The notes under the pieces are model-generated. The model was given only the letters and a program-made list of their open reading frames with translations, was not told the origin of the DNA and ran no database searches. Positions 471 to 26,105 of a stretch of 64,000 bases of DNA are shown here, piece by piece. Position 1 is the stretch's first letter; each line of letters begins with the position of its first letter. The position numbers were made by a program, and so were the translations under genes. The stretch is from Aurantimonas endophytica (GTDB lineage: Bacteria; Pseudomonadota; Alphaproteobacteria; Rhizobiales; Rhizobiaceae): contig NZ_JACIEM010000001.1 in NCBI RefSeq assembly GCF_014196845.1, positions 868,001-932,000 of the forward strand, written 5' to 3'.

Positions 471-1550
<1,080 letters not shown>

Positions 1551-1606
1551 GGAGACGGGACCTTATTTCACGCGTTGGATCGGGGTGCAATGACGGCTTG
1601 GACGAA

Positions 1607-1635
1607 TTTGTACCGCGTTTGTTCTCATTCGGCAA
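1607..1635 (-). promoter_or_regulatory. recA promoter with LexA-like SOS box
   Basis: On the minus strand TTGCCG (1635-1630) and TACAAA (1612-1607) are separated by 17 bp, a plausible sigma70-type promoter 57 bp upstream of the recA ATG. Inside it, GAAC-N7-GTAC (1624-1610) matches the alphaproteobacterial LexA direct-repeat box GAAC-N7-GAAC at seven of eight positions and overlaps the -10. LexA binding there would block recA transcription. The assignment rests on position and consensus only. Confidence 0.55.
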
Positions 1636-1711
1636 GTCGATTGTCATGCTTTGTTCCGTATTCGCGAGGTACGACGAATCGGCCGCCGCTGCTACCAATG
1701 CTTAAGGATCG

Positions 1712-9381: not shown

Positions 9382-10833
9382 ATGACCTCCCTTGCCGACG
9401 AGGCGCGGCTCGTCCTCGACAATTTCGCCGACCGCACGACCGGCCTCTTCCACCCGAACCTCCGGCTCGGCGTCGCCGGCCTGTCGCGGGCCGGCAAGAC
9501 CGTCTACATCACCGCCCTCGTCCACAATCTGCTGCATGGCGGGCGCCTGTCGCTGTTCGAGGCACAGGCCAGCGGCCGCATCATGCGCAGCTATCTGGAG
9601 GAGCAGCCGGACGACGCGGTGCCGCGCTTCCAGTACGAGGAGCATATCCGCACCATCCTGGAAGACCGCGCCTGGCCGAAATCCACGCGGGCGATCTCCG
9701 AGCTGCGCCTGACCATCGAGTACGAATCGGCTTCCGGCTGGTCGCGCATGTTCTCCGGCGGCCGGCTGTCGCTCGACATCGTCGACTATCCCGGCGAGTG
9801 GCTTCTGGATCTGCCGCTTCTGGAGAAGGACTTCGCACGCTTCTCCGCCGAGGCGCTCGAACGTGCGCGCTTGCCGTCGCGAAAGGCCATGGCGGGCAAG
9901 TTCCTCGCGCTGCTCGACGGCTTGGATCTAGCCCAGCCGGCCGACGAGCCGACCGCCCAGTCGCTCAGCGCCGCCTTCGCCGACTATCTCAAGGCTTGCC
10001 GCGACGACTCGACCGCCCTGTCGACTTTGCCGCCCGGCCGTTTCCTTATGCCGGGTGACCTCGAAGGCTCGCCCGCGCTGACATTCGCGCCGCTGCCGGT
10101 CGAGCCGGGCCGGACCTATCCGAAGGGCTCGCTCGCAGCGTTGCTGGCGCGGCGCTACGAGGCCTACAAGACCGTCGTGGTGAAGCCGTTCTTCCGCGAG
10201 CATTTTGCCCGGCTGGACCGGCAGATCCTGCTGGTCGACGTGATGCAGGCCATCAATGCCGGCCCCGAGGCGGTGCGCGACCTCGAGACCGCCCTCGCCG
10301 ACATTCTCGGCTGCTTCCGTCCCGGACGCAGCACCTGGCTCGGCTCCTTCCTGACCCGTCGCATCGACCGTATCCTCGTCGCGGCGACCAAGGCGGACCA
10401 CCTGCACCGCGACAGCCACCGGCAGCTCGAGGCGATCGTCCGCCGGCTGCTCGACGACGCCATCGCACGGGCGAAATTCTCCGGGGCCGAGACGGACGTG
10501 CTGGCCCTCGCTGCCGTTCGAGCGACCCGCGAGGCGACCGTCATGGACGGCGACGACCGCCTGCCGGTGATCGTCGGCACCCCGGCGGCCGGCGAGACCA
10601 TCGGCCGGGACACGTTCGACGGCGAGACCGAGACGGCGGTGTTCCCCGGCGATCTGCCGAGCGACCCTGCCCGGCTGTTCCTGCCGAACCCCGGCAAGCC
10701 GGCGGACGGGATCCGCTTCGTGCGGTTCCGCCCGCCGCGGCTTGAGCGCACGGCGGAGGGGCTGACGCTGTCGCTCCCCCACATCCGCCTCGACCGCGCC
10801 CTGCAGTTCCTCCTCGGAGACCGGCTGGCATGA
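9382..10833 (+). CDS. ycjX: YcjX-family GTP-binding protein
   Basis: 483 residues, matching the YcjX (DUF463) family. The P-loop is AGLSRAGKT (about residues 32-40). The conserved LSLDIVDYPGEWLLDLPLL resembles a switch region, and ILVAATKADHLHRDSHRQLEAIV is the (N/T)KxD-type base-recognition segment. The family is predicted to bind GTP and is linked in other bacteria to phage-shock or envelope stress genes. The next gene encodes its usual partner, and their stop and start overlap (ATGA), so they are almost certainly co-translated. Confidence 0.9.
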   Translation: MTSLADEARLVLDNFADRTTGLFHPNLRLGVAGLSRAGKTVYITALVHNLLHGGRLSLFEAQASGRIMRSYLEEQPDDAVPRFQYEEHIRTILEDRAWPKSTRAISELRLTIEYESASGWSRMFSGGRLSLDIVDYPGEWLLDLPLLEKDFARFSAEALERARLPSRKAMAGKFLALLDGLDLAQPADEPTAQSLSAAFADYLKACRDDSTALSTLPPGRFLMPGDLEGSPALTFAPLPVEPGRTYPKGSLAALLARRYEAYKTVVVKPFFREHFARLDRQILLVDVMQAINAGPEAVRDLETALADILGCFRPGRSTWLGSFLTRRIDRILVAATKADHLHRDSHRQLEAIVRRLLDDAIARAKFSGAETDVLALAAVRATREATVMDGDDRLPVIVGTPAAGETIGRDTFDGETETAVFPGDLPSDPARLFLPNPGKPADGIRFVRFRPPRLERTAEGLTLSLPHIRLDRALQFLLGDRLA

Positions 10834-11942
10834 GCAACGACGACGCCTCCCGCCGTGCCCGCCGTCCCGGTGCATATCGCCTCGACGAAGCCGGCGTTGC
10901 CCGCACCCCGCCCGTGGAGGAGCGGGTTGTGCCCCGCCGCGCCCCCCGGGCCATCGACGACCTGACCCGGGTCGCGCTGGAGCCCGATGACGCCATCGAA
11001 CGCCAGGCTCTGGAAGCACTGGAGGCCGCACCCGCGACAAGGCGACGGCGCCGCTTTTCCTTCGGCAAGCTCTTCATCGCCGCCCTGGGTGTGCTGGTGT
11101 CGCTCGGCGTCGCGCTGGCGATCGATGCGCTGATCCGCGACCTCTTCGCGCGCTATGACTGGCTCGGCTGGCTCGCGGTCGGTGTCACGGTGCTGCTGGT
11201 AGTCGGCGCCGTCGGCCTCGCCGCGCGCGAGGCCATCGGCCTGATGCGCCTGTCGGCGGTCGACCGCGAGCGCCGCGACGGCCTTGCCGCCTACGAGGCG
11301 AACTCGGCGAACGACGCGCGGACCGTGGTGCGCTCGCTGTCAGCTCTGCTGTCGGGACGACCGGAGACGGCGCATGGCCGGGCGCGCCTTGCCGCGCTCG
11401 ACGACGAGGTGATCGACGGCGCCGACCTCATCGCGCTCGCCGAGCGCGAATTGCTCGGTCCGCTCGATGCCGCGGCTCGGACGCTGGTCCTGGCCTCCGC
11501 CAAGCGAGTCTCGGTGGTCACCGCTGTCAGCCCGAAGGCACTGGTCGATGTCGCCTACGTGCTCTTCGAGACCGTCAAGCTGATCCGGCGGATGTCGGAG
11601 CTTTACGGCGCGCGGCCCGGAACGCTCGGCCTGATCCGCCTGACCCGCGACGTTCTGGCGCATCTCGCAGTCACCGGGTCGATCGCCATCGGCGACGGCG
11701 TCATGCAGCAGCTTCTCGGCCACGGCGTTGCCGCGAAACTCTCGGCAAGGATGGGCGAAGGCGTGGTCAACGGCCTCCTGACCGCGCGGGTCGGCCTCGC
11801 CGCCATGGATCTGTGTCGGCCGCTTCCATTCCTGCGGACCCGGCGTCCGCGCATCGGCGACATCCTCTCCGAACTTGTCTCGATCGGCGGCGGCTCCGCC
11901 GCTCGTCGACGTCCGGCGGAGGCCGGTCCGAACGATTTGTGA
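10830..11942 (+). CDS. ycjF: YcjF/TIGR01620-family inner membrane protein
   Basis: 370 residues. An Arg-rich N-terminal cytoplasmic stretch is followed by two membrane helices (about 76-98 and 108-130: LFIAALGVLVSLGVALAID; WLAVGVTVLLVVGAVGLAA). The C-terminal DUF697 region includes TVLASAKRVSVVTAVSPKAL and VNGLLTARVGLAAMDLCRPLPF. It overlaps ycjX by four bases. The pair is conserved in proteobacteria and probably acts together at the inner membrane; its biochemical role is not established. Confidence 0.88.
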   Translation: MSNDDASRRARRPGAYRLDEAGVARTPPVEERVVPRRAPRAIDDLTRVALEPDDAIERQALEALEAAPATRRRRRFSFGKLFIAALGVLVSLGVALAIDALIRDLFARYDWLGWLAVGVTVLLVVGAVGLAAREAIGLMRLSAVDRERRDGLAAYEANSANDARTVVRSLSALLSGRPETAHGRARLAALDDEVIDGADLIALAERELLGPLDAAARTLVLASAKRVSVVTAVSPKALVDVAYVLFETVKLIRRMSELYGARPGTLGLIRLTRDVLAHLAVTGSIAIGDGVMQQLLGHGVAAKLSARMGEGVVNGLLTARVGLAAMDLCRPLPFLRTRRPRIGDILSELVSIGGGSAARRRPAEAGPNDL

Positions 11943-12025
11943 ACCCCTTGGCAAGGCTCTCTTAACCCTTACGAGCGATAAAGATTGGTGAAACAACCGC
12001 TTGCGCCCGTCAGGAAGGTCCGCCC

Positions 12026-12559
12026 ATGTCCCGCATTCTCAAGGCCGGTCTCGCTCTCGCGATCGCCGCCTCTACCGGCCTCTCCACGCCGGCCTTCGCC
12101 GAGAACGACGAGACCTTCTTCCGCCAGGTCGTCGGCCAGTGGTCCGGCCCGGGCGAGATCGTCGCCGGCAAGTACAAGGGGACCAAGTTCATCTGCGACT
12201 TCGCGGGCACCCAGCATGCCAAGAGCGTCGGCATGGCGCTCGACGGCTCCTGCCGGGTCGGGCTGTTCTCCCAGCCGATGCGGGCGGAAGTCGTGCGCGG
12301 CGGCAAGGGCTACACCGGTGCCTTCCAGGACGGTGCCAAGGGCAAGGGCCTCGACATCGTCTCGGGCGACGTCGGTGCAGATCGGATCGTCGTCGGCCTC
12401 GACCGCAAGCAGTTGAAGGGCGCGATGATCGCGCGCCTCGCCGACCAGGACACGATGGCGATCACCGTCTCGGTCCGCGTCGCTTCCGACCTCGTGCCGG
12501 TCATCGGCATGAACCTCAAGCGCACCGGCGCCGTCCGCCAGAGCGCCCTCGCCGACTGA
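12026..12559 (+). CDS. Conserved secreted protein of unknown function
   Basis: 177 residues. A cleavable signal peptide (MSRILKAGLALAIAASTGLSTPAFA, cut expected after AFA) leads a mature domain of about 150 residues, starting NDETFFRQVVGQWSGPGEIVAGKYKG. Two cysteines (FICDF; GSCRVG) could form a disulphide. The composition suggests a small periplasmic beta-barrel or lipocalin-like fold, but I do not recognise the family. AGGAAGG precedes the ATG. It stands alone after ycjF and converges on folK with a 7-bp gap. Confidence 0.8.
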   Translation: MSRILKAGLALAIAASTGLSTPAFAENDETFFRQVVGQWSGPGEIVAGKYKGTKFICDFAGTQHAKSVGMALDGSCRVGLFSQPMRAEVVRGGKGYTGAFQDGAKGKGLDIVSGDVGADRIVVGLDRKQLKGAMIARLADQDTMAITVSVRVASDLVPVIGMNLKRTGAVRQSALAD

Positions 12560-12566
12560 GGATCCG

Positions 12567-13085
12567 TCAGCCGGGCATGCCCGGCTCCCGCCACCATTCG
12601 CCGTCAACACTCGCCGGCTCGATACCCTCCGGATCGGCGGCGGCGGCCCACTCGGTGACCGTGCGGCCAGCGATCCGCAGGGTCGGCGCGATCTCGGCCA
12701 ACGGGATCAGCACGAAGGCGCGGTCCGTCACCCGAGGATGCGGCAGGATCAGCGCATCGTCCTCGTAGGGCCGTTCTCCGTAATCGAGAACGTCGAGATC
12801 GAGCGTTCGCGGCCCCCAGCGCTCGCGGCGCTCGCGCTTGAAGCTGCGCTCGGTCTCAAGACACAGCTCCAGCAGGTCGCGCGGCGACAGCGTCGTCGCG
12901 ACCGTCGCGCACGCATTGAAGAACCAGGGCTGGTCGGTCTTGCCCCAAGGCGGCGTACGGTAGAGCCGCGACGCCGAAACGACATCGCAATCGGCTCGAC
13001 CATCGATAAGGCGGAGCGCCGCCGCCATCGTCGCCTGCGGATCGCCGATATTGCCGCCAAGCCCCAGACAGGCGGCGACCGTCAC
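12567..13085 (-). CDS. folK: 2-amino-4-hydroxy-6-hydroxymethyldihydropteridine pyrophosphokinase
   Basis: 172 residues, usual length. The enzyme transfers pyrophosphate from ATP to hydroxymethyldihydropterin in folate synthesis. Motifs are LGLGGNIGDP, SRLYRTPPWGKTDQPWFFNAC, the signature RWGPRTLDLDVLDYG and LPHPRVTDRAFVLIPLAEI. Translation starts at a GTG overlapping the folP stop (GTGA), so it is coupled to folP. The folB gene usually found between folP and folK in rhizobia is absent here. Confidence 0.95.
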   Translation of the reverse strand: MTVAACLGLGGNIGDPQATMAAALRLIDGRADCDVVSASRLYRTPPWGKTDQPWFFNACATVATTLSPRDLLELCLETERSFKRERRERWGPRTLDLDVLDYGERPYEDDALILPHPRVTDRAFVLIPLAEIAPTLRIAGRTVTEWAAAADPEGIEPASVDGEWWREPGMPG

Positions 13086-13942
13086 CAGCGCTCGCCCTGG
13101 AGCGCGCGCCGCATGGCATCGGCGATCATCAGCGCGTCGCGATTGGCCGGCACGTTGTGCACCCTGAAGATGTCCGCCCCGCGCTCGCGCAGCAGTACCG
13201 AGGTCGCCGCCGAGGCGATGTCCGGCTCGGGATCCTCGCGGCCGATCGCGCCGCGCACGAAGCGCTTGCGCGAGGTGCCGACGAGCAGCGGGAAGCCGAG
13301 GCGCATCAGCTCTGCAAAACGCGCCATCAGGATCATGTTCTCCGGCCCATCCTTGGCAAAGCCGAATCCGGCGTCCAGCACGATGGCGGCATCTGGAACA
13401 CCCGCCGCGCGGGCGATCTCCAGCGAGTGGCGCAGGAACAGGAACTGGTCCTCGATGACGTCGGGAAGCGTCTCGCGCTCGCGACCCGTATGCATCATGC
13501 AGAGACCCGAACCGGTCTCCGCCGCAACGCGCGCGATCGCCGGGTCCTTCTGCGCGCCCCAGACGTCGTTGACGATATGGGCCCCGGCTTCGACTGCGAG
13601 CCTTGCCGTCCCCGAGCGATAGGTGTCCACCGAGATCAGGCAGTCCGAGCGGCGCGCCAGTTCCTCGATCACCGGCAAGATCCGGCGCTGCTCCTCCGCC
13701 GCGTCGACTGGGGTTGCCCCCGGCCGCGTCGATTCCCCGCCGATGTCGACGATGGTGGCGCCCTCGGCGACCATCTTCAGCGATTCCGCCACGGCGGCTT
13801 CGACGCTCGCGTAGCGTCCGCCGTCGGAGAAGCTGTCCGGCGTCGCATTGAGGATGCCCATGATGCAGGCGGATTCGCCGAGCTCGACGCTGCGGCCATG
13901 GCCGACCTGCCAGATGCCGCCCCTTGGTTCGATGACGTCCAT
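13082..13942 (-). CDS. folP: Dihydropteroate synthase
   Basis: 286 residues from MDVIEPRGG. The enzyme condenses p-aminobenzoate with hydroxymethyldihydropterin pyrophosphate; it is the sulfonamide target. Signatures are MGILNATPDSFSDGG, VDIGGESTRPGA, DVWGAQKD, VLDAGFGFAKD and LVGTSRKRFV. The frame is open far upstream, but AGGAG six bases before 13942 and homolog length fix the start there. It is first in the folP-folK pair and divergent from the DUF922 gene. Confidence 0.95.
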   Translation of the reverse strand: MDVIEPRGGIWQVGHGRSVELGESACIMGILNATPDSFSDGGRYASVEAAVAESLKMVAEGATIVDIGGESTRPGATPVDAAEEQRRILPVIEELARRSDCLISVDTYRSGTARLAVEAGAHIVNDVWGAQKDPAIARVAAETGSGLCMMHTGRERETLPDVIEDQFLFLRHSLEIARAAGVPDAAIVLDAGFGFAKDGPENMILMARFAELMRLGFPLLVGTSRKRFVRGAIGREDPEPDIASAATSVLLRERGADIFRVHNVPANRDALMIADAMRRALQGERW

Positions 13943-14098
13943 GGACGCTCCTGCCAGCTGGTATCTTCCTGCGTCGTCGGTAACGTGCCGCTGCGCGGCG
14001 CGCAATTGCGCGCGAGGCGGCTTGTGTTGCGGCGGCGATGGGTTAGCCTGCGGAATGCAGGTATGAGCAGCCTCGTCTCCGGCGGAGGACCACCAGAA

Positions 14099-14719
14099 AT
14101 GCGGACGAAAATGGGCATGCCGCTGATCGGCGTCCTGGCGCTGGGCGTGGCGCTTGCCCACGCTGGGCTGGTCCAGGCGGCGACCGTCACCCAGCGCACG
14201 ACCTATTTCGCCGTGAAGGGTTCGACGCTCGAGGAACTTGACCGTGATCTCAGCCGAAGCGGTCCCTATGTCGCCGAGACCGGCCTTCGCCATCCCGGCG
14301 CGACCGAGGTCAAGTTCGACGGACAGGTGACGTACAAGCGGGTTTCCGGCGGCTGCCAGGTCGACCAGACCAATCTCGGCCTGACGCTCAACATGACGCT
14401 GCCGCGGTGGACGCCGCCGAAGCGAGTGGCGCCGGAAACGATCCTGGTGTGGAGGACGCTCGAGGAAGACATCCGCCGCCACGAGAACCGCCACGCCGAG
14501 ATTGCCCGCGAATGGCTGAAGCGCATGGAAATGGCGATCCGCAACTTGCGGGCCCAGCCCAACTGCGCCGCGATGGAGGCTCAGGTGAACAACGTCACCC
14601 AGCGCTATCTCGCCTCGCACGAGCGCGCCCAGATCGAGTTCGACACGATCGAGGGACGCGAGGTGAATTTCCGGCTGCGCCGCGCGCTCAACCGCACCAT
14701 GCAGGAATACGGCCGGTAG
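14099..14719 (+). CDS. DUF922 putative secreted zinc protease
   Basis: 206 residues. A signal peptide (MRTKMGMPLIGVLALGVALA...VQAA) leads a domain with YFAVKGSTLEELDRDLSRSGP at its start, typical of DUF922. An HExxH zinc motif follows (RRHENRHAEIA, His128-Glu-Asn-Arg-His132). Two cysteines (GGCQVD; PNCAAM) may pair. The family is predicted to be a periplasmic metallopeptidase, but substrates are unknown. The start at 14099 follows GGAGG. An in-frame ATG at 14063 is possible but would bury the signal peptide. Confidence 0.8.
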   Translation: MRTKMGMPLIGVLALGVALAHAGLVQAATVTQRTTYFAVKGSTLEELDRDLSRSGPYVAETGLRHPGATEVKFDGQVTYKRVSGGCQVDQTNLGLTLNMTLPRWTPPKRVAPETILVWRTLEEDIRRHENRHAEIAREWLKRMEMAIRNLRAQPNCAAMEAQVNNVTQRYLASHERAQIEFDTIEGREVNFRLRRALNRTMQEYGR

Positions 14720-15299: not shown

Positions 15300-15680
15300 T
15301 CAGTCGATCAGCGAGCGGGCGAAGCTTGCCGCTGCCTCGGCCTCACGGCGCAGCTGCGCCAGCGCCGCCGGGTCACGCAGCGCGGTCTCGTAGCGCTCGG
15401 CGCAGTCGGCCAGGCGAAACGCTCCGACGTTGCGGGCCGTCCCCTTGAGCGCGTGAGCGATCTGCCGCCTGTCCTCTTCGCGTGCGCCGTCGAGGCGCCG
15501 CAGCAGCGTGTCGAGCTGGCGGCTCAGCATGCCCAGCACGTCGGCTTCGAGCGCGCGGTCGCCGCAGGTCTGGCGCGCCAGGTGGACGAGATCGATCGGC
15601 CGACGCCGCGACGGACATTGCGTGCCGCCGACCGTCTCGCCGGCCCCGGCCTTTCTCGCCTTCAGCACCGCCTGAAGCAT
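15300..15680 (-). CDS. Single-domain histidine phosphotransfer (Hpt) protein
   Basis: 126 residues from MLQAVLKARK, preceded by GAGGGAG. The core RRQIAHALKGTARNVGAFRLADCAERYE is the Hpt signature, with phospho-acceptor His76. Such proteins shuttle phosphate between hybrid-kinase receivers and response regulators. It has no kinase or receiver domain of its own. It differs from ChpT, CckA's usual partner, which is about 200 residues and dimeric. It is divergent from the giant coiled-coil gene. The partner kinase is unknown; single-domain Hpt proteins such as Caulobacter ShpA are a reasonable comparison. Confidence 0.85.
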   Translation of the reverse strand: MLQAVLKARKAGAGETVGGTQCPSRRRPIDLVHLARQTCGDRALEADVLGMLSRQLDTLLRRLDGAREEDRRQIAHALKGTARNVGAFRLADCAERYETALRDPAALAQLRREAEAAASFARSLID

Positions 15681-16119
15681 GTCCGTCTCCCTCAATGCCG
15701 AATGGCGGCAACCGCATCCCGGCGCGTGGCGGCATGTCACCGGAACACCCGATCATCTGGCGACAGCATGTATGAAGGATTAACCGGAACGCGCGGAATG
15801 AGCCGAACGGCTTGTACCGCCGTCACCGCCTGAATCGCCGCAACCTCGGCGCCGCAGGGGCGACGGTCGGAACCCGCAAAATTTTCGTAAAGCCGTTAAC
15901 CTTATGTTTAAACTTGTAGGTATCCGGCGGTTTTACGGTTTCTTTCGATGCAGTCGCTATCTACCATGGATCATGCGAAACTGCCGGCTGGAGGCTATGC
16001 GCCTACCGCCGACGGCCAGCATGCCGGAATCGGACGGGGCTTCCAACCCCTCGTGCACGTCCGTATGGCGACCCTCGGCGGAGCGGGTCCATAGTAACGA
16101 GTATTGAGGCGCGACGGCC
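15681..16119. other. 439-bp divergent intergenic region between hpt and GPR-like gene
   Basis: It holds an AT-rich patch (15880-15920) in an otherwise GC-rich sequence, with TTAA at 15896-15899 and 15908-15911. That is eight bases apart, one more than the CtrA consensus TTAA-N7-TTAA. A 48-codon ORF runs from ATG 15948 to TAG 16092-16094 with no clear ribosome site. Inverted arms CGGAC (16031-16035) and GTCCG (16059-16063), with inner GGGG/CCCC, could form a leader hairpin before the 16120 start. I see no RNA gene. Confidence 0.5.
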
Positions 16120-19100
16120 ATGTCTAAGACCAATCCCATCGATCAGCTTTCGGACGAGGCAGTCAACGAGCTCGAAGCGGCCCTCAGGGCCGATCTCGGC
16201 GGGCCGGAAACCTACGACGAGCCCGGTCAGGCATCCGGAACGCTCCTGGATGACGCCGCGACCCAGCACGCCGAGGTCGAATTCTCTCTGGACGAGTTCG
16301 AGCGCCAGATCAACGAGACCGCCGGCCAGTTGCGGAACGACGAGGCCGATGCGTCCGCGCCTGTCGCATCTGCTGATCCGCTCGACACCGACAGCGTCGA
16401 CGTGACCGGCAGTCCCGCGGACGCTTCGCAGACGGTCGGTCTGCGCCGCGAAGCCGGCGACGAAACATGGGTGCCGTCCGCCGCGGCCACCGCTTCTCGC
16501 CGCCCCGCTCCCGCCGACGAGACGCCGCGCGCCTACGCCCAGCCGCCGGCAAACGACGAAGAGCGCCGCTCGACGGTCATGGCCGACGCGCTTCTCAACC
16601 GGCGCGCCTCGAAGGCACCTTTGTGGATCGCCCTCGCCGTCTCCGTTGCCTGGCTCGCCGTCACCGGCTTCGTCGCCTTTGGCCTGTACGATCTTGCCGC
16701 GCTGTCTGCCGGCGTCACCGATCCCGCGCGCCAAGGCGAGGTGGCGCTGCTTGCGGCGATCGCCTTCGTGCCGGTGCTGCTGATCTTCGCCTTCGCCGTC
16801 ATGGTCCGTCGCTCGGCCGAATTGCGGCTGATGAGCCGTTCTCTCGCCGAGGTCGCGCTGCGTCTCGCCGAGCCGGAGACGGTGGCCACCGAACGGGTGA
16901 TGAGCGTCGGCCAGGCCGTCCGCCGCGAGGTCGCGGCCCTCGGTGAAGGCGTCGAGCGCGCCCTGGCGCGGACGTCCGATCTCGAAAACATCGTGCACAA
17001 GGAAGTCGGCGCCCTCGAGCGGGCCTATGCCGACAACGAGGTGAAGATCCGCACGCTGGTGCAGGATCTCGGCGCCGAGCGCGAGGCGATGCTTTCGCAT
17101 GGCGAGCGCCTGCGCTCGACCGTCGTCGGCTCGCACCAGCGCCTGGTCGAGGATGTCGACCGCGCATCGGATCAGATCCTGCAGCGGATCGAGGATGCCT
17201 CGCATCGCTTCACCGCCCTGCTGGACGAGCGCAGCGAAGTGCTCAACAAGGACTTCGCCGCCCGCAGCGGCAATCTCGTGGAAGCGTTCGAGGAGCGCAG
17301 CCGCAACGCCAATGACAGCCTGACCGCCCATACCGAAAGCCTGGTGGCGCGTCTCGGCCAGAGCGCCGACGACGCGACGCATCGCCTGATCACCACCGGC
17401 GAGGACGTCGCTCGGCAGTTCGACGAGCGGATGGAGGATCTCGATTCACGCTCCCGTGCCATCGTCGGCCGTCTCACCGATATCGGCCAGGACGTCACCG
17501 CCCGCCTGACCGCCACGGGCGATGCGGTCTCGGGCCTCATGCAGGCGCGCGGCCAGAACATTGCCGGCGAGAGCGAACGCTTCCTTGCCGAGCTAACCGA
17601 AGCGCTCGACGGCCGGTCCATCGGCCTGGCGATGGAAGGTCAGACCTTCCTGACCAGCCTCGAAGAAGCCTTCGAGGAGCGGATGCGCGAAATCGGCGAC
17701 AAGAACCAGATCTTCCTCACCAGCCTGGTCGAAACCGTGGACAGCCGCCGCGAGCGGCTCGATGCCGATTCCCTGCGCTTCATCGAGACGCTGGAGCTCG
17801 GCCTCGGCGAGCGCACCGAGCGTGCCAGCCGTCTGCTGGACGATGCCAACAGCCGCACCCTCGGCGGGCTCGACAGCCGTATCGAGACGATCGAACAGGC
17901 GCTGACCGAGCGCGGCGGTTCGCTCGTGGCGGCGCTCGACCAGCGGACGGACGCGATCGACCGCTCCGGCGACCGGATCGCCGAGGCGCTGGAGCGCCGT
18001 TCCCTGGAATTCGCGCGGACTCTCGCCGATCGCACCCGCGACATCGCCAATGCCTTTGCCAGCGGCCAGGCCGAACTGACGATGAAGGCCGGCGACGCGG
18101 TCACCCTGGCGCAGTCGACGCTCGAAGGTCGCGCCGATGAGCTGCGCCACCTCTTCGACGAGCGCATCGCCACCTTTGCTGCGCTCATGGAAGAGCGGAC
18201 CGGCCAGCTCGCCGGCACCGTCGACGACCGCCTGCTCGCCTTCGACCTCGCCAGCGACGGCCGGATCGACAGCATTGCGCAGAAGGCAGGCGACATGGAC
18301 GCCGCCATCGAGCGGGCAGCAGCGCGTCTGGAAGACCTCCTCTCGCAGCGACGCGACGAGATCGAGGCTGCGGTCGACCGCGGCACGGCCGGCTTCCGCG
18401 AAACGCTGGACGGCCGCGTCCTCTCGATCGAGAAGGCGATCGTCGGTCACGGCGAGGACATCGAGGCCTCCTTCGCCTTCGCCCAGCAGAGCCTGCTCGG
18501 CAACCTGGAAGAGAAGACCGCCGGCCTGACCCGGGCCATCGAGGACACTGTCGCCCGGATGGAGGACCTGATCGGCGGCGCCGAAGGGGCTCTCGCCCGC
18601 GGCATCGATGACCGGACCGGTTCGCTGGCCCAGTTGCTCGACGATCGGCGCGAAGCCATCGAGGGACTGGTTGCCGCCGGCCGTGATGGTCTCGTCAACG
18701 GACTCGACCAGCGGATCGAGGCCATCGCCAGCCTGCTGTCGGAGCGCGTCGGGCAGTTCCACGATTCGATCGAAGACGAGTCGGCCCGCCTCATCGGTGG
18801 CATCGACGAGCGCACCGGGGCCCTCACCATGGGCCTCGCCGATCGCCTCGCCGCCAGCCACACGATCCTGTCGACGGCACAGGACGATCTCCTCGCCGGG
18901 CTCGACCAGCGTCACCAGGCGATCCGGACGACGCTCGACGAGCGCGCCAGCGTGCTGCGCAGCCTGTCCGAAGAGACCCACCAGAACCTCCTTCTTTCCC
19001 TGGACGAGCGCATTGCCGGAATTTCCGGCAGCTTCGACCAGGCGGTCAAGAACGTCGCCGAGGACCTCGCCGAGCGGGTCCAGTCGCTCAGCGGCGTCAT

Positions 19101-22100
19101 CGACGGTTCGCGTCTTGCCATTGTCGGCGAGGTCGACCGCAATACCGAGCGGCTTCGCGAGGAGATGGACGCCCGAACCAATAGCTTCGGACAGCGTATC
19201 GCCATCGATGCCGGCACGCATCTCGCTGCCGTCCAAGACGCGCTTGGCCTCCTCGTCGACGGTCTCGACGAGCGGGTCGGCAAACTGCGGTCGACGGCCG
19301 AGGAAGTCGAGATCTCGCTCCGGGACGGCCTCGACGGTCGCTTCGAGGCTATCCGCACGATTATGCAGGAAGGCCACGGCACGCTCATCGGCGACCTCGA
19401 CCGGCGCACCGAGACGCTCTCCAGCGAGATCGGCGAGCGGGTCATGCGCGTCGGCGAAAGCCTCGACGGCCGCGTCGAAGCCATCCGCGCGATCATGCAG
19501 GAAGGCCACGGCACGCTCATCGGCGACCTCGACCTGCGCACCGAGACGCTCTCCAGCGAGATCGGCGAGCGGGTGATGCGCGTCGGGGAGAGCCTCGACG
19601 GCCGCACGGCGGCGCTGCGCAGCGTCATCGAACAGGCACGTGCCATTCTGGTCGACGGGCTCGACGACCGGCTGGCCGCCTTGCAGGGTGTCATCGACGG
19701 ATCGGAGGGCACGCTGCTCGCCGGCCTCGACGAGCGCACCGCCCGCATCGGCGAACAGCTCGACAATGGCCGCGATTCGATCGCGGCAGCCATCGAAGAG
19801 CGCGTCAACGGCATTGCCGAGGCGATCTTCGAGGCCGACCTTCGACTGGCCTCGGCGCTCGAGGAACGTCGCGACAGCATCGCCGGCATCGTCGAGGAAG
19901 CTGCCCGTTCGGCGGCCGCCACGCTCGGCGACCGTGCCGACGACGTCCGCCGCGTCATCGAGCAGAGCGTCGGCGACGTCTCGACCTCGCTGGAAATCCG
20001 TCGTGACGAACTGCTCGCGGCGCTGGAGACCGGCTCCACGAGCCTGACCGGAGCACTCGACCAGCGCACCGAAGCGATCTCGACGGCTCTGGATCGCGGC
20101 CTCGGCAATGTCGAGCGCACGCTCAACACCCGTACCGCCACGATCGCGGACACGCTGCGCCAGACCATTGCCAGTGCGACGGCAGCCATGGGCGAGGAAG
20201 CCGCTCGGGCCCGTCAGAGCCTCGAAGGCGAGACGCGCAAGATCGCCGCGAGCGTCGACGGGATCGAGGAGATCTTCCTCACCTCCACCGAAGACGCGCG
20301 CCTGCGGCTGTCCGGCGAGGCCGACCGTCTCGCCGAGCGCCTCGGCGCGCTGGCCGACGATCTGGCGACCAAGGCTTCGGAAGCAAGTTCCTCGCTGGTC
20401 GGCGAAGGCGGCCGTATCGCGGAGAACATCAGCGGCGCGGCGGAGATCATCCGCTCGCTGTCCGAGCAGTCGCGCAGCCGCTTCGCTGCCGAAGCCGAAG
20501 AACTGGCAAGGTCGATCGCCGACCTGTCCGGCCGCATGCGGACGGAAGCCGAGGAGGTGCGGACCGGTCTTGCCGAACAGCGCGCCGCATTGGCCGACAG
20601 CCTTGCCGGCATCACCGTTGCGGTGGCCGGCGAGTTCGAGCGCAACACCGGCAGCTTCGCAGCCAGCGTCGACGAGGCGAGCGAGCGGCTCCGCCTGGCC
20701 GGTCAGGAGGGCCGCGAGCGCTTCGTCACCGATGCCGGCGAGATCGCCGCGCAGGTGGAGAGTGCCGCCGAGCGCATGCGCGAAATGACCGAGGCGGCGC
20801 AGGCAGCCATGCAGCAGAACACCGACGGCTTTGCCCGTCGCCTGTCCGGCGCCTCGTATCAGATCCGCAGCGAGACCGATCGGGTCGCCGAGACCCTCGA
20901 GCAGCGCTCGCAGCGCTTTACCGAGGAACTCGCCGCCGTCTCGGAGCGGCTGTCGGAGATGCTGGCTGCCAACCCGCTGCGCACCGACCTGGAGGAAGCC
21001 ACCCGCGCCATCCACGACCAGCTCGCCGAAGCCTCGCAGACCTTCCTGCGCGACGCCGACGGTGCCCGCACGGAGATCATGGCGCGCGGCGGCGAACTGG
21101 CCGGCCAGCTCGCCTCCATCTCCAGCGCCATCCGCGTCGAGACCGAGCGCGCCCGCGAGCAGCTGCTCGAAAGCGCCGGCAATGTCGGCGAAGAGCTCGT
21201 CGCCCGTCTTGCCCGGTCCGAGCAGGAGATCGACGCGCGCGCCCGGATGCTCGGCGACGACATCGACGAGAAGACCCGCACCCTCGCCGCGCTGCTCAGC
21301 GCCCGCACGAGCGAAATCTCCCGCGTCCTCGACGAGGAAGCACGGCCGATGTTCGACCAGCTGGGCGAGAACGGTTCGGAGTTCGCACGGCTGCTCGAAC
21401 GCAGCACCCGCGACGCCTCGGACCGGATGCGCGAGGAGAATGCCGCCCTCGTCGCCGCCTTGGGCCGCCGTGCCAGCGAAACGATCGAGAGCCTGAATGC
21501 GTCTTCCAGCGAGGTCCTCGGGGCCTTCGACGAGAAGACCACGACGGCCGTCGGGCTCGTGGCCGAAATGCGCGACCAGCTGCAGCGTGAAGTGGGTGGC
21601 CTCATCGGCCGGCTGGCGCAGACCAGCGGATCGCTGCGCGGCCTCGTGCAGGAGGCGGCCAGCAATCTCGGAGCGATCGACGCCACCCTGCAGGAAACCG
21701 GCACCCGGTTCACTCAGGGCGCCGAGCAGGCGTCCAACTCGATCTCGCTCTCCTCGCGCCTCCTGGAGAGCAATGTCGAGCGCCTCGACCATCTGTCGAT
21801 GAGCGCCTTCTCGAAGGTCGCCGGCATTGCCGACCGCTTCCAGGAGCACGGGGCAGTCCTCGGCGACGCCGTCAAGCTGATCGAGGCGAGCGAGATGACG
21901 CTGCGCTCGACGCTCGAGAACGGCCATGGCGGCATCGAGGAGCTGTCGGCGGGCCTGGTGAAGCGGTCCGAGGAGATCGGCGAACTGATGCGTTCCTTCG
22001 AGGAGGTCATCGAGGGCCTGTTCGAGCGGACCGAGCAGCGCTCGCGGCTGGTTTCGGCGCGGCTCTCGTCGGAGGTCGGCGAGAAGCTCGGCGAGGCGGA

Positions 22101-23271
22101 TGCGCAGATGCAGAGCGCCGAGGAACGTTCGCGGGCGGCCGCCGAGGCCATGCGCAGCTCGATCCAGTCGGTCGTCGAGGATGCCACCCAGCGCTTCCAC
22201 GGCGCGACCGAGGAGATGCGCCGGACCGCCGCGGAGATCCGCGAGGAGCTCGAGAGCGCCCGCAACGAGATCCGGCGCGGCGTCTTCGAACTGCCCGAGG
22301 AAACCCGCGAGACCACCGAGGCGATGCGTCGGGCCGTCGCCGACCAGATCCGCGCCCTGAAGGATCTCTCGGACATCGTCTCGCAGTCCGGCCGCGCCTT
22401 CGACGTGTCGTCCCGTTCGTCGTCGCAGCGTCCGGCCGCGGTGGAAGCACCATCCCGCCCCGCTGCCAAGCGCGTCGAGCAGCAGCGGCCCGCTCCTGAA
22501 AGCCCGCGGGTTTCGGAGCCTGTCGACCAGGCGCTGTTCACCGAAGAGGAAGAGCGCGACGTGGAGGCGCAGATCGCTGCGTCCTTCATGACCGACGGCA
22601 ATCTCGCACGCGATCTGAGGGGGTCGAACTACGACGCTCCGTCGCGGACGCCGTCAACGTCCGCCGGTTCCGCGCCGACCGCTGGCTCCGCCGAGATGCG
22701 CGGCTCGGAGCGGACGCAGGCTGCTCAGCCCTCGCCGCTGCGTCCCGCGGCGCGGCCGGCGGAGTCGCAGGGAACTCAGGCCGCCGCATCGCGGCCGGGT
22801 GGCGGCTGGGTCTCGGACCTGCTGCGCCGCGCCTCCCGCGACGAGGAGGAGGCGGCGCCGGCTGCGGCCACCCCGGCACGGCCGGCACCTGCCGCCTCGC
22901 AGCCGACGGAACGCTCGCCGGAGCATGTGGTCGACTCGCTCAACTCGCTGTCGGTCGACATTGCCCGTGCGATCGACCACAACGCCTCGGTGGAGCTCTG
23001 GGACCGTTACCGCAAGGGCGAGCGCAACGTCTTCACCCGCCGGCTCTACACGATGAAGGGCCAGCAGACCTTCGACGAGATCCGCCGGAAGTATCAGCGC
23101 GACACGACATTCCGGGAGGCGGTGGACCGCTATATCGGCGACTTCGAGACGCTGCTCGGCGACGTGTCGAAGAACGATCCCGACAACCGGACGACGCACA
23201 CCTACCTGACCTCCGACACCGGCAAGGTCTACACCATGCTCGCGCATGCATCCGGTCGCTTCGACAGCTGA
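16120..23271 (+). CDS. Giant membrane-anchored coiled-coil protein, GPR/RgsE-like
   Basis: 2383 residues. An acidic N-terminal region (1-165) is followed by two membrane helices (about 168-190 and 208-229). Roughly 1860 residues of continuous predicted helix follow, with apolipoprotein-like heptad/hendecad repeats in which LDxRxxxI segments recur. After a Pro/Ser/Ala-rich linker (about 2095-2265) comes a compact C-terminal domain (2268-2383; VELWDRYRKGERNVFTRRLYT, YLTSDTGKVYTML). Size and plan match GPR of Agrobacterium (about 2100 residues, a ring at the growing pole needed for polar growth and rod shape) and RgsE of Sinorhizobium. Residues 1073-1160 contain a near-perfect tandem duplication. 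It is monocistronic and ends in a strong hairpin. Confidence 0.85.
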   Translation: MSKTNPIDQLSDEAVNELEAALRADLGGPETYDEPGQASGTLLDDAATQHAEVEFSLDEFERQINETAGQLRNDEADASAPVASADPLDTDSVDVTGSPADASQTVGLRREAGDETWVPSAAATASRRPAPADETPRAYAQPPANDEERRSTVMADALLNRRASKAPLWIALAVSVAWLAVTGFVAFGLYDLAALSAGVTDPARQGEVALLAAIAFVPVLLIFAFAVMVRRSAELRLMSRSLAEVALRLAEPETVATERVMSVGQAVRREVAALGEGVERALARTSDLENIVHKEVGALERAYADNEVKIRTLVQDLGAEREAMLSHGERLRSTVVGSHQRLVEDVDRASDQILQRIEDASHRFTALLDERSEVLNKDFAARSGNLVEAFEERSRNANDSLTAHTESLVARLGQSADDATHRLITTGEDVARQFDERMEDLDSRSRAIVGRLTDIGQDVTARLTATGDAVSGLMQARGQNIAGESERFLAELTEALDGRSIGLAMEGQTFLTSLEEAFEERMREIGDKNQIFLTSLVETVDSRRERLDADSLRFIETLELGLGERTERASRLLDDANSRTLGGLDSRIETIEQALTERGGSLVAALDQRTDAIDRSGDRIAEALERRSLEFARTLADRTRDIANAFASGQAELTMKAGDAVTLAQSTLEGRADELRHLFDERIATFAALMEERTGQLAGTVDDRLLAFDLASDGRIDSIAQKAGDMDAAIERAAARLEDLLSQRRDEIEAAVDRGTAGFRETLDGRVLSIEKAIVGHGEDIEASFAFAQQSLLGNLEEKTAGLTRAIEDTVARMEDLIGGAEGALARGIDDRTGSLAQLLDDRREAIEGLVAAGRDGLVNGLDQRIEAIASLLSERVGQFHDSIEDESARLIGGIDERTGALTMGLADRLAASHTILSTAQDDLLAGLDQRHQAIRTTLDERASVLRSLSEETHQNLLLSLDERIAGISGSFDQAVKNVAEDLAERVQSLSGVIDGSRLAIVGEVDRNTERLREEMDARTNSFGQRIAIDAGTHLAAVQDALGLLVDGLDERVGKLRSTAEEVEISLRDGLDGRFEAIRTIMQEGHGTLIGDLDRRTETLSSEIGERVMRVGESLDGRVEAIRAIMQEGHGTLIGDLDLRTETLSSEIGERVMRVGESLDGRTAALRSVIEQARAILVDGLDDRLAALQGVIDGSEGTLLAGLDERTARIGEQLDNGRDSIAAAIEERVNGIAEAIFEADLRLASALEERRDSIAGIVEEAARSAAATLGDRADDVRRVIEQSVGDVSTSLEIRRDELLAALETGSTSLTGALDQRTEAISTALDRGLGNVERTLNTRTATIADTLRQTIASATAAMGEEAARARQSLEGETRKIAASVDGIEEIFLTSTEDARLRLSGEADRLAERLGALADDLATKASEASSSLVGEGGRIAENISGAAEIIRSLSEQSRSRFAAEAEELARSIADLSGRMRTEAEEVRTGLAEQRAALADSLAGITVAVAGEFERNTGSFAASVDEASERLRLAGQEGRERFVTDAGEIAAQVESAAERMREMTEAAQAAMQQNTDGFARRLSGASYQIRSETDRVAETLEQRSQRFTEELAAVSERLSEMLAANPLRTDLEEATRAIHDQLAEASQTFLRDADGARTEIMARGGELAGQLASISSAIRVETERAREQLLESAGNVGEELVARLARSEQEIDARARMLGDDIDEKTRTLAALLSARTSEISRVLDEEARPMFDQLGENGSEFARLLERSTRDASDRMREENAALVAALGRRASETIESLNASSSEVLGAFDEKTTTAVGLVAEMRDQLQREVGGLIGRLAQTSGSLRGLVQEAASNLGAIDATLQETGTRFTQGAEQASNSISLSSRLLESNVERLDHLSMSAFSKVAGIADRFQEHGAVLGDAVKLIEASEMTLRSTLENGHGGIEELSAGLVKRSEEIGELMRSFEEVIEGLFERTEQRSRLVSARLSSEVGEKLGEADAQMQSAEERSRAAAEAMRSSIQSVVEDATQRFHGATEEMRRTAAEIREELESARNEIRRGVFELPEETRETTEAMRRAVADQIRALKDLSDIVSQSGRAFDVSSRSSSQRPAAVEAPSRPAAKRVEQQRPAPESPRVSEPVDQALFTEEEERDVEAQIAASFMTDGNLARDLRGSNYDAPSRTPSTSAGSAPTAGSAEMRGSERTQAAQPSPLRPAARPAESQGTQAAASRPGGGWVSDLLRRASRDEEEAAPAAATPARPAPAASQPTERSPEHVVDSLNSLSVDIARAIDHNASVELWDRYRKGERNVFTRRLYTMKGQQTFDEIRRKYQRDTTFREAVDRYIGDFETLLGDVSKNDPDNRTTHTYLTSDTGKVYTMLAHASGRFDS
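19336..19599 (+). repeat. Two tandem 132-bp repeats within the GPR-like gene
   Basis: Units 19336-19467 and 19468-19599 encode 44 residues each. Both contain the segment IMQEGHGTLIGDL followed by RTETLSSEIGE and RVMRVGESLDGR. They differ at a few residues (RF/RV, RT/RA, DR/DL), and their DNA is nearly identical even at third positions. A third, diverged unit begins at 19600 (GRTAAL). The period of 44 equals four hendecads, so coiled-coil phase is kept. Confidence 0.92.
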
Positions 23272-23487: not shown

Positions 23488-24078
23488 TCAGATAAGCGCC
23501 AGCGTCCAGCGGACGATCTCGCCCGAGATCTGCTCGAAGGCGTGGTCGAGGGCCGCGACGTAGTCGGCGTTGCTCGTCCCCGCGACCGGCACCTGCACGG
23601 CAAAGACCTGGGTGCGCAGCACGCTGCCGTTGCGGTCGTTGAGCGCCTTGACCGAGATCTCGATCACCGCCCGCGCCGGGCCGACCGCCTCGATCTCGAA
23701 CTTCCGGACTTCCATGACCATCTGGTAGTCGATGGCCAGGCCCTGGCCGGGCACGCCGACCGCGCCGATGCGCCCGGTGTTCTCGAAGGCCTGCAGCAGC
23801 CGCAACTGGACCATGCGCGGCAGGCGGTCGCTCCACTGGCTCCCGGCAAGATACTCGACCGAATAAGGCGTCGGCTTCACCACGATCCGCTCGGAATCCA
23901 GCGTCTTGATCGCCGTCGGCTCCGGAATCAGGATCTGCGCCCGGCTCTGGCCGGCGACGTTCTGGACCATGGCCGGGGCCGAGATCTCGAACGTGTCCGG
24001 CGGGGGCGTCGACAGGCAGGAACTGAGGGCCACCGCGAGGAACGCCAGCAGGACCGGTCGGGACGTTGAACGCATCAT
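23488..24078 (-). CDS. ABC transport auxiliary lipoprotein (PqiC/DUF330-like)
   Basis: About 196 residues from MMRSTSRPVLLAFLAVALSSC. The lipobox LSSC makes Cys21 the lipidated residue, so an outer-membrane or periplasmic lipoprotein is expected. The body fits the ABC-type transport auxiliary lipoprotein family (YSVEYLAGSQWSDRLPRMVQLRLLQAFEN; VMEVRKFEIEA). In MCE systems this lipoprotein binds the MCE protein or the outer-membrane end. It is the last gene of the permease-ATPase-MCE-lipoprotein operon, 77 bp after the MCE gene. The ORF is open upstream to 24150, but the signal peptide sets the start. Confidence 0.87.
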   Translation of the reverse strand: MMRSTSRPVLLAFLAVALSSCLSTPPPDTFEISAPAMVQNVAGQSRAQILIPEPTAIKTLDSERIVVKPTPYSVEYLAGSQWSDRLPRMVQLRLLQAFENTGRIGAVGVPGQGLAIDYQMVMEVRKFEIEAVGPARAVIEISVKALNDRNGSVLRTQVFAVQVPVAGTSNADYVAALDHAFEQISGEIVRWTLALI

Positions 24079-24155
24079 TTCTTGCCTGTTCCTGTCGCGG
24101 TCGCGACCTTTGCTCGCACTCGTCATTGCCGCTGTCAACGCTGAGTCCATGGGGC

Positions 24156-26105
24156 TCAGCGCCGGGTCCGGCCGTCAAACTGCTTGACCTCGTCGCCGCC
24201 GTAGATCAGCCGGCTCGGGTTGTTCGAGAAATCGTCGACCGCCCTGTCGATCCGGCCAACCGACTGTGTCACATCGCGAACCAGCGTCTGGAATTCGCGC
24301 AGGCCCTGACCGGTGAACCGCTGGAGATTGGCCGAGATCGGCGTGACCTCTGCCTGGATCGACTGGGCAGCGGCCCGGATCGACCGGAGCGTCGTGGCGA
24401 CGTCGGTGCCGAGGCTGGTGCCGTCATTCGCGCCGGCCAGGAGGTCGTTGACCGAGGTCACGACGCTGTCGATGCGCTGCGAGGCGGCACTGATCCGCTG
24501 GCTGGTCAGCTCGACATTGGTGATGATGTCGTTGATGTCCTCGCGCCGCTCCCCGATGGAATCGGCGACGCCGGCGATCGAGTCCGCCGCCCGGGCGACG
24601 TTGTCGGTCGCCGAGGAAACGTTTTCGACCGCGCGGTTGACCTGACCCGGATCGATGCTGGCCAGCAGCGTGTCGACCTGGGCGCGGGTCTCGGAAAACC
24701 CGTTGAGGGTCGCCTCGAGGGTCCGGACCGTCTGGTCGACACCGTCGATGATCGACTGGACTTCAGGGGTCTTGGCGCTCAGTGCCGAGGTGACGTTTCG
24801 CACGTCGCCGATGACCTCGTTGACGGTCGTGGCGTCGATCGAGTTGATCAGCGCGTCGGCCGAGGCCACCGTCTCGTTGACCTGGCGGCTGGCGGCGCTG
24901 ATGTTTTCGGTGATCGGCCCGAGGCTGGCGAGCAGGCCGTCGATCTCGCTGCTGCGACCCGCGATCGTGGTGGTGATCCGGTTGACGTTCTGCGCCGAAT
25001 TCGCGACGCCGGCGATCGCCGAATTGATCGCCTCGCGCTGCGTCGAGATCGACTGCGTCAGCGACGAGACGTTGCTGGCCGTCGCGGCGATGTCGTCGAT
25101 GGCGGTGGAGACTGCTGCGGGATCGACCGCCGCGACGACCCGATTGGCCGTCTCAAGCGTCGTGTCCAGGCGCTCGGCCACCCGCGTCGCCGTCTCGGTG
25201 ATCGGTCCGAGACCGGCAAGGAAGCGGTCGATCTGCGGCGTGTTGCGGCTGATGATCTCGCCGACTTCGCCGACGCTGTCCGCGGCGGTTTGCACCGAGG
25301 CCACGACGCTCTCGACGTTGTCGGATTGGGCACGCAGCGTCTCTGACATGGCTGCGACGTTGGAGACCGTGGTGCGGATCGCTGCCGGGTCGACAGCCGC
25401 AAGGATCGCCTGAACCTCGGAAATCGCATCGGGAAGCCCCTCGGCGACGGTGTTGGCGGTATTGGCGAGCCGGCTGAGGCTCTGCAGGAACTCGTCGATG
25501 TCATCCGAATTGGACGCGAGGCTGGAGGTGAACTGCTCGATGTTCTCCGACGTCTTCGAGACGTTTTCGAGCGTGACGCTGATCGACGGCCCGGCACCGG
25601 CGACGATGCTCTCGAACTCGCCGAGGATGGTGTTCGCCCGATCGGCGATGTCGCGCGCCGTCGCCAGGATGTCGGTGATGTCGGACGGATTGGCCCGGAT
25701 GATCGGCACGGTGCCCTGCTGCTGGGCCTCCTTGATGATGTCCGGCTCGTCGGCGGCGCCGCCCTTCAGCTCGATGAAGGCAAAGCCGGTCAGGCCCTGG
25801 AAGCCGATATTGGCCTGCGTCGTCTCCTTGATCGGCAGGTCCGGATCCACCTGGGTGGACGCAATGACCACCCGGGGATTGTTGGGATCGATGCGCAGCG
25901 ACTGCACGGCGCCCACCGGCAGGCCGTTGAACAGAACTTGGCTGCCCTGCTGCAGGCCGGTGACCGAACCCTCGATCCGCACCAGCAACGGCACGCGCGA
26001 ATCCCCCTGGGAAGCGAAGATCGACCAGTAGACGAAGGCGAACGCCAGAACGAGGACGACGAGCGTGAAGATTCCGACTCGGACGTAATTCGCCTTGGTT
26101 TCCAT
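24156..26105 (-). CDS. MCE-domain (MlaD-like) protein with long helical tail
   Basis: 649 residues. An N-terminal membrane anchor (residues 10-30, VGIFTLVVLVLAFAFVYWSIF) is followed by one MCE domain (about 38-114; GLQQGSQVLFNGLPVGAVQSL, QANIGFQGLTGFAFIELKGG). About 500 residues of Ser/Thr/Ala/Val-rich helix follow. MCE proteins bind phospholipids and bridge the periplasm. Here the tail has repeats that restart at (A/S)(V/I)D(P/A) near residues 236, 325, 421 and 482, suggesting a needle-like extension. The ATG at 26105 overlaps the ATPase stop (TGATG); a TTG one codon earlier is less likely. Confidence 0.92.
   Translation of the reverse strand: METKANYVRVGIFTLVVLVLAFAFVYWSIFASQGDSRVPLLVRIEGSVTGLQQGSQVLFNGLPVGAVQSLRIDPNNPRVVIASTQVDPDLPIKETTQANIGFQGLTGFAFIELKGGAADEPDIIKEAQQQGTVPIIRANPSDITDILATARDIADRANTILGEFESIVAGAGPSISVTLENVSKTSENIEQFTSSLASNSDDIDEFLQSLSRLANTANTVAEGLPDAISEVQAILAAVDPAAIRTTVSNVAAMSETLRAQSDNVESVVASVQTAADSVGEVGEIISRNTPQIDRFLAGLGPITETATRVAERLDTTLETANRVVAAVDPAAVSTAIDDIAATASNVSSLTQSISTQREAINSAIAGVANSAQNVNRITTTIAGRSSEIDGLLASLGPITENISAASRQVNETVASADALINSIDATTVNEVIGDVRNVTSALSAKTPEVQSIIDGVDQTVRTLEATLNGFSETRAQVDTLLASIDPGQVNRAVENVSSATDNVARAADSIAGVADSIGERREDINDIITNVELTSQRISAASQRIDSVVTSVNDLLAGANDGTSLGTDVATTLRSIRAAAQSIQAEVTPISANLQRFTGQGLREFQTLVRDVTQSVGRIDRAVDDFSNNPSRLIYGGDEVKQFDGRTRR
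24428..25400 (-). repeat. Degenerate internal repeats in the MCE protein tail
   Basis: Segments start at residues 236 (AAVDPAAIRTTV), 325 (AAVDPAAVSTAI), 421 (NSIDATTVNEVI) and 482 (ASIDPGQVNRAV), spaced 89, 96 and 61 residues. The first two also share (I/L)LASLGPIT- or LAGLGPIT-type motifs (GLGPITETATRVAE; SLGPITENISAASR). They are diverged at the DNA level, so the duplication is old. Confidence 0.75.

Follow-up and report, generated by a model that had tools for sequence, protein, structure and literature searches.

The question raised by this locus is what a 2383-residue protein, most of which is a single helical rod, does in Aurantimonas endophytica, and how the length of such a rod changes between relatives. 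The gene lies in a stretch of 64,000 nucleotides (the window, to which all coordinates refer). An earlier note, made from the letters of this DNA alone, had described an open reading frame for a growth-pole-ring-like protein (GPR/RgsE). This frame is real: it starts with ATG and runs, on the plus strand, without a single internal stop to its stop codon. The plan read from it also holds, with an acidic N-terminus, two hydrophobic segments, a rod of about 1850 residues, a disordered linker and a compact C-terminus. The gene and its parts are as follows:

16120..23271, plus strand: rgsE/gpr ortholog, 2383 aa plus stop (open reading frame, translation, match to S. meliloti RgsE, single copy)
16120..16599, plus strand: acidic N-terminal tail, residues 1-160, net charge -23 (composition)
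16621..16677, plus strand: first hydrophobic segment, about residues 168-186 (Kyte-Doolittle window)
16750..16806, plus strand: second hydrophobic segment, about residues 211-229 (Kyte-Doolittle window)
16825..22371, plus strand: helical rod, residues 236-2084, PF01442-like, hydrophobic period 11/3 (Pfam, periodicity, composition)
16840..17109, plus strand: juxtamembrane block, residues 241-330; conserved in RgsE, with similar sequence in TipN-like proteins (alignments)
19328..19605, plus strand: 132-bp tandem duplication (44 residues), 2.1 copies, 93% matches, a repeat within the rod
22372..22914, plus strand: Pro/Ala-rich linker, residues 2085-2265, 11% Pro (composition)
22915..23268, plus strand: C-terminal domain, residues 2266-2383 (118 residues; homology searches, structure prediction)

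The first 100 residues contain 24 Asp and Glu versus 4 Lys and Arg, and a motif of the tail (about residues 8-26) is, when compared by eye, alike in other Rhizobiaceae. Proline makes up only 0.2% of the rod. Searched against Pfam and NCBIfam, the C-terminal domain gives no match up to E 1, and in four homologs taken from other families nothing exceeded a curated cut-off. A model predicted from 9 sequences is all helical (mean pLDDT 80, pTM 0.75), and its structural comparison yielded no clear match. A 1535-aa open frame runs antisense to the rod (17593-22200, minus strand) and is probably a by-product of GC-rich repeats.

By sequence, the protein is an ortholog of RgsE/GPR. The family assignment of the earlier note is borne out at both conserved blocks, which match S. 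meliloti RgsE: the C-terminal domain with 80% identity over 115 aa (E 1e-66), and the membrane and juxtamembrane block (residues 160-360) with 48% over 207 columns (E 3e-58). The full-length comparison gives 319 bits. Taken alone, the first 150 residues do not align significantly and colinearly with either of two named Sinorhizobium homologs. The S. meliloti reference gene (record CP090106.1) encodes exactly 2089 aa, the length published for RgsE (PMC7327166). It is annotated as 'kinesin'; the Pfam matches that the window protein gives up to E 1 include no kinesin family. The record itself (L276, S. meliloti Ak57) is labelled pSymB, yet it measures 3.72 Mb and carries rgsE with chromosomal-type neighbours. 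S. meliloti RgsE (SMc00190) shares with the window protein the plan, the single copy and the upstream gene order with a divergent Hpt gene, but is 294 residues shorter, the rods differing by repeats. The link to Agrobacterium GPR runs via RgsE, since the two are reported to be 42% identical (PMC7327166). GPR (Atu1348) has 2115 aa, with two transmembrane segments, about 1700 helical residues, a Pro-rich region and a conserved tail, as described in PMC8262873; compared by length and by this description only, it has the same plan and is 268 residues shorter than the window protein.

A search of the host genome with the C-terminal domain returned one match, i.e. a single copy. The domain was present in all 60 genomes of the first sample (own genome included; single in 59) and in 321 of 324 Rhizobiaceae-type genomes. 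Given its presence in 60/60 genomes, together with a periodicity of the rod far above that of shuffled sequences (see below), the described plan exceeds what chance would produce.

The orthology extends to the gene neighbourhood, in which the following genes precede the rod gene:

9382-10833, plus strand: YcjX (Pfam)
10830-11942, plus strand: DUF697/YcjF-like (Pfam)
12567-13085, minus strand: FolK (Pfam)
within 13082-14620, minus strand: FolP (Pfam)
within 13157-14719, plus strand: DUF922 (Pfam)
15300..15740, minus strand: single-domain Hpt gene, divergent from the rod gene (Pfam PF01627, E 5.5e-8; the true start may lie further in)

The region 9382..14719 is a conserved upstream neighbourhood, which was also counted in other loci, and the order YcjF-like, folK, folP, DUF922, divergent Hpt is common to the window and the S. 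meliloti rgsE locus. In the window folK adjoins folP (12567-14620, minus strand); S. meliloti has folB in between. Of 154 loci with 1500 or more bases of upstream sequence, 125 have a divergent Hpt frame within 4 kb upstream. By group, such a frame was found in 74/76 loci of named Rhizobiaceae and in 47/57 of the relatives L031-L087. It was also found in 5/5 sphingomonad-like loci (each with fewer than 1500 bases upstream) and beside a copy on a named Sphingomonas plasmid, but in none of 15 TipN-like loci. A simple pattern for the phosphorylatable histidine (HxLKG) matched 106 of the 156 Hpt hits; 45 had no LKG match, and five (three of them sphingomonad, and one, L164, out of register) had another residue at this position. 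The Hpt neighbours of the sphingomonad copies L124, L125 and L277 seem to have no phosphorylatable histidine. That Hpt is functionally linked to the scaffold is our conjecture.

Directly downstream (23488-28118, minus strand) lies a set of Mla/Mce-type lipid transport genes encoding an auxiliary lipoprotein, an MlaD of 650 aa whose long tail is coil-like, an ABC ATPase and an MlaE permease; matches to the lipoprotein, MlaD and MlaE occur in 23-24 of the 57 relatives' loci and in 32 of the 76 named loci. Further on, a 771-aa frame (31358-33673, plus strand) reads, by eye, like a fusion of malic enzyme with a phosphotransacetylase-like domain.

The protein had been considered larger than the Agrobacterium prototype. 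This is so in the literal sense (2383 vs 2115 aa), but not as a sign of anything unusual, since its size is ordinary within the family. Among the best 150 matches listed, 148 frames exceed 700 aa; these Rhizobiaceae frames span 1171-3392 aa (median 2102), and 82% of them are shorter than the stop-to-stop frame of the gene in the window (2387). Near relatives (group g1) have 2283-2390 aa, with the exception of L034 (2679) and a frame-broken copy.

How, then, does the rod change its length? Its hydrophobic residues (ILMFV) recur with a period of 3.66 (11/3), at a power of 120 versus at most 8.5 in 20 shuffles (the shuffles being read at period steps five times as wide), and its autocorrelation peaks at 22, 11, 44, 33 and 66 residues. 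The median period of 140 long rhizobial homologs is 3.657 (5-95%: 3.627-3.665); short rhizobial ones have 3.57-3.63, TipN-like proteins (n=15) 3.590-3.597, and the other non-rhizobial homologs examined 3.537-3.627. As judged from aligned homologs, rod length changes almost only in whole steps of 11 or 29 residues. Within the coil, 113 pairs of close homologs yielded 119 distinct indels, of which 81 were multiples of 11 and 29 left a remainder of 7 (21 of 29 aa, four of 51, two of 18, one of 7 and one of 95); the other nine had sizes of 3, 58, 69, 116 and 138. Outside the coil of the same pairs, multiples of 11 accounted for only 3 of 114 indels, under a laxer flank rule (6 of 12 identical, versus 13 of 25 for the coil). 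Indels shorter than 11 aa showed the opposite distribution, i.e. 2/119 in the coil vs 99/114 outside it. When the laxer rule was applied to the coil, 82 of 123 indels were multiples of 11, and three other gap penalties left the picture unchanged (66/98, 79/116 and 78/115). These period and indel analyses cover proteins with a rod of at least 800 residues and a detected transmembrane segment.

The indel pairs are drawn from related sequences, and two checks lessen the effect of this kinship. With each sequence used only once, 39 pairs gave 34 coil indels, 33 of them of at least 5 aa, and 27 of these 33 were multiples of 11 (p 5e-23), five being of 29 residues and one of 69. In the second, alignment-free check, the distance between two conserved anchors was non-uniform modulo 11 (p 6e-7; 76 distinct values from the 108 of 154 sequences that have both anchors, the other 46 lacking one of them). 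Modulo 7, 9, 10, 12 and 13 the same distance did not depart from uniformity (p 0.26-0.92), nor did linker length modulo 11 (p 0.96, 56 values). In the window protein and six relatives the anchor distances are 1790, 1790, 1746, 1746, 1680, 1680 and 2296, all of which equal 8 modulo 11. An unfiltered comparison with eight relatives gave 25 multiples of 11 among 28 coil gaps, the exceptions being a gap of 241 and one of 4 beside one of 161 (sum 165). The filter retained no coil indel from 105 pairs of TipN-like proteins, a result that divergence may explain as well as a fixed length. Among the papers listed, we did not find stepwise length change of GPR described; this is weak evidence of its absence from print, the subscription literature being thinly covered.

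The route of these changes is likely to be tandem duplication and loss, as indicated by the identity of inserts to their neighbours: 34 of 117 inserts are at least 80% identical to an adjoining stretch of equal length. The window provides an example, as the relative L032 (93% identical overall) is without exactly 44 residues at the site of the 132-bp tandem duplication. The suggestion of the earlier note that length varies by repeat gain is thus directly supported, by indel sizes, anchor distances, the 44-residue duplication and the insert-neighbour identity. The scarcity of short indels in the coil points to selection against changes that leave the register. Such selection is suggested by the sequences and cannot be fully separated from repeat slippage, because duplication of tandem repeats alone would favour repeat-sized steps. 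It is also conceivable that total length is neutral, with repeats coming and going by slippage and only the register being selected. The inserts resembling their neighbours are what this reading would predict, and so is the wide range of the family (1171-3392 among the best 150 matches listed), near relatives varying as well; we consider its chances to be about even.

A different view of the rod is that it forms a lipid-binding, apolipoprotein-like surface, whose amphipathic 22-residue repeats would lie on the membrane and sort growth-pole lipids instead of packing into a rod. The Pfam apolipoprotein model PF01442 matches the whole protein above its cut-off (167 bits vs 90, E 4e-49) in 14 stretches, and the rod has the same 11/22-residue amphipathic periodicity as apolipoproteins A1/A4/E; moreover, a lipid role has been proposed for Agrobacterium GPR, according to PMC8262873. 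In the genome-wide PF01442 search, no single piece of the window protein passed the cut-off. On the same rod, ZorA, SpiroCoCo and other coil models give weak matches, all below their own cut-offs, so that the PF01442 match may report only the period. Plasma apolipoproteins have a lipid-binding face rich in lysine. The window rod, unlike these proteins, is acidic (net charge -128), poor in Lys (1.0%) and aromatic residues (Trp 0.0%, Tyr 0.1%), membrane-anchored and far longer; its composition speaks against a lipid face of the plasma type. We regard the lipid-surface reading as rather unlikely. The candidate ZorA, of the Zorya defence system, was rejected, as its three NCBIfam matches stay below their cut-offs (36 bits vs 190, 35 vs 700 and 19 vs 250), all of them within the coil. 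Further weak PF01442 matches in the host genome are located in a 511-aa and a 286-aa frame (G000:C1:1312533-1312862 and G000:C5:478266-478568).

The second question concerns the relatives of the family outside the rhizobia. Similarity of GPR to TipN is already in print (PMC8546619, citing another paper), while PMC13170164 calls the 882-aa TipN analogous, and PMC5182065 states that most Alphaproteobacteria do not encode it; Caulobacter papers describe TipN as a new-pole landmark acting with ParA, PopZ and the placement of the flagellum. We found that a profile made without Caulobacteraceae-like members retrieves proteins from that family at E 1e-6 to 8e-6 per genome; these frames measure 838-1005 aa and have hydrophobic segments near the N-terminus. 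Other members came up at 1e-11 to 5e-5. Rhizobial and TipN-like alignments, compared profile against profile, match at E 6e-12 over 61 columns of the C-terminal domain and at E 4e-14 over 182 columns of the membrane block. At the level of profiles, the RgsE/GPR family and the TipN-like proteins are thus homologous at both ends. The Caulobacteraceae-like family (f79) has a TipN-like protein in 142 of 149 genomes. One genome, whose ChpT is identical to PDB 4FMT at 224 of 225 positions, contains an ATG-started TipN-like frame of exactly 882 aa; 4FMT and 4FPP are from Caulobacter. The labels Rhizobiaceae (f1), Caulobacteraceae (f79) and Rhodobacteraceae (f45) are our own assignments, based on ChpT identity, the 882-aa frame and matches to named plasmids.

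Caulobacter TipN has two transmembrane segments, a coil and the C-terminal domain, as does the window protein, but the TipN-like rod comprises only about 400-440 residues with a period of 3.59, vs about 1850 residues and 3.66. TipN-like proteins also differ in having neither a PF01442 match (one scanned) nor a divergent Hpt gene, both of which are present in the window. A still shorter form occurs in 11 Rhodobacteraceae-like genomes, whose frames of 329-373 aa carry the C-terminal domain; three of them (L155, L156 and L157, 330-354 aa) have two transmembrane segments and this domain, without a long coil, and named relatives of the coil-less form are in Ruegeria and Tritonibacter. Across the class, profile A1 (E 0.01) found the domain in 154 of 387 genomes; in a sample of the phylum, profile A2 found it in 78 of 249, all 78 belonging to the class. 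The homology to TipN-like proteins, and the occurrence of homologs in many MreB-bearing Alphaproteobacteria, might be taken to mean that the A. endophytica protein is a TipN-like polarity landmark with another task, and not a growth-pole protein. Such a reading is very improbable, since RgsE is far closer (80% identity vs a match at profile level), the rgsE neighbourhood is shared and the host genome is without MreB.

MreB is otherwise widespread: at E 1e-60 it was detected in 361 of 387 genomes of the class. The A. endophytica genome has no MreB at this threshold, its best PF06723 match reaching 60 bits in a 678-aa frame, and we take the weaker PF06723 matches, by frame length, to be DnaK and FtsA. 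This genome, of a member of the Rhizobiaceae in the GTDB sense, therefore holds no true MreB, which is what polar growth would lead one to expect. It could be supposed that the rod expanded upon loss of MreB, the scaffold replacing the MreB system. Four Rhizobiales relatives with a full MreB have frames of only 915, 934, 1103 and 1169 aa, versus a median of 1890 aa in 50 relatives without it (Mann-Whitney p 0.003; the comparison excludes one frame-broken and one contig-end copy as well as a weak second match, and three genomes were absent from the sample). At most four clades contribute to this difference, so that ancestry confounds it, and 4 of the 50 relatives without MreB likewise have frames under 1170 aa. 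Furthermore, families f56 and f83 of other orders possess MreB, yet their frames are mostly of about 1700-2120 aa (one f83 frame has 1054). We consider such an expansion improbable. In a fifth genome, G044, MreB is matched only in part, at the end of a contig, and the frame has 1036 aa.

Taken together, the protein is very probably an RgsE/GPR ortholog serving as an anchored scaffold of the new pole, with a rod that changes length in register, and is homologous to TipN. The two N-terminal membrane helices would anchor it in the inner membrane. A helical rod, almost straight and about 1850 residues long, would carry the C-terminal domain on a flexible linker; as a single extended alpha-helix (0.15 nm per residue) this rod would measure about 277 nm. 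At the new pole, this scaffold would hold the machinery that builds wall and membrane in place. The rod would gain and lose units of 11n and 29 residues by duplication and loss, and we propose that such steps keep the hydrophobic stripe in register, and with it the way in which the rods pack. Polar localisation and a growth function in A. endophytica, as well as an oligomeric ring and the geometry of the rod, are what we infer for the protein, and its C-terminal domain may be a docking site. Two observations count against this proposal: (i) part of the family occurs in MreB-bearing bacteria that are not known to grow polarly, and (ii) the stripe is in phase for about 660 residues (675-1335), drifting earlier, shifting phase after about 1335 and weakening near the end of the rod.

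A wider reading, which we put forward tentatively and with more doubt than conviction, is that GPR and TipN might constitute one alphaproteobacterial family of membrane-anchored pole scaffolds (anchor, rod, linker and tip), in which the rod, changing by in-register steps, could act as an adjustable spacer setting the geometry of the growth ring, and Hpt may provide coupling to a phosphorelay. If this is true, the rod would have been tuned from none (Rhodobacteraceae) via 400-440 residues (Caulobacteraceae) to about 2900 (some Rhizobiaceae), and would set how far the tip domain stands from the anchor. The protein itself is the expected ortholog, and its comparison with relatives matters more. 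Two results are worth following: the rod that changes length by steps, and the common descent with TipN. For the latter there is evidence at sequence level, running through a C-terminal domain lacking from Pfam and NCBIfam, that the rhizobial growth-pole ring protein and the new-pole landmark share an ancestor at both ends.
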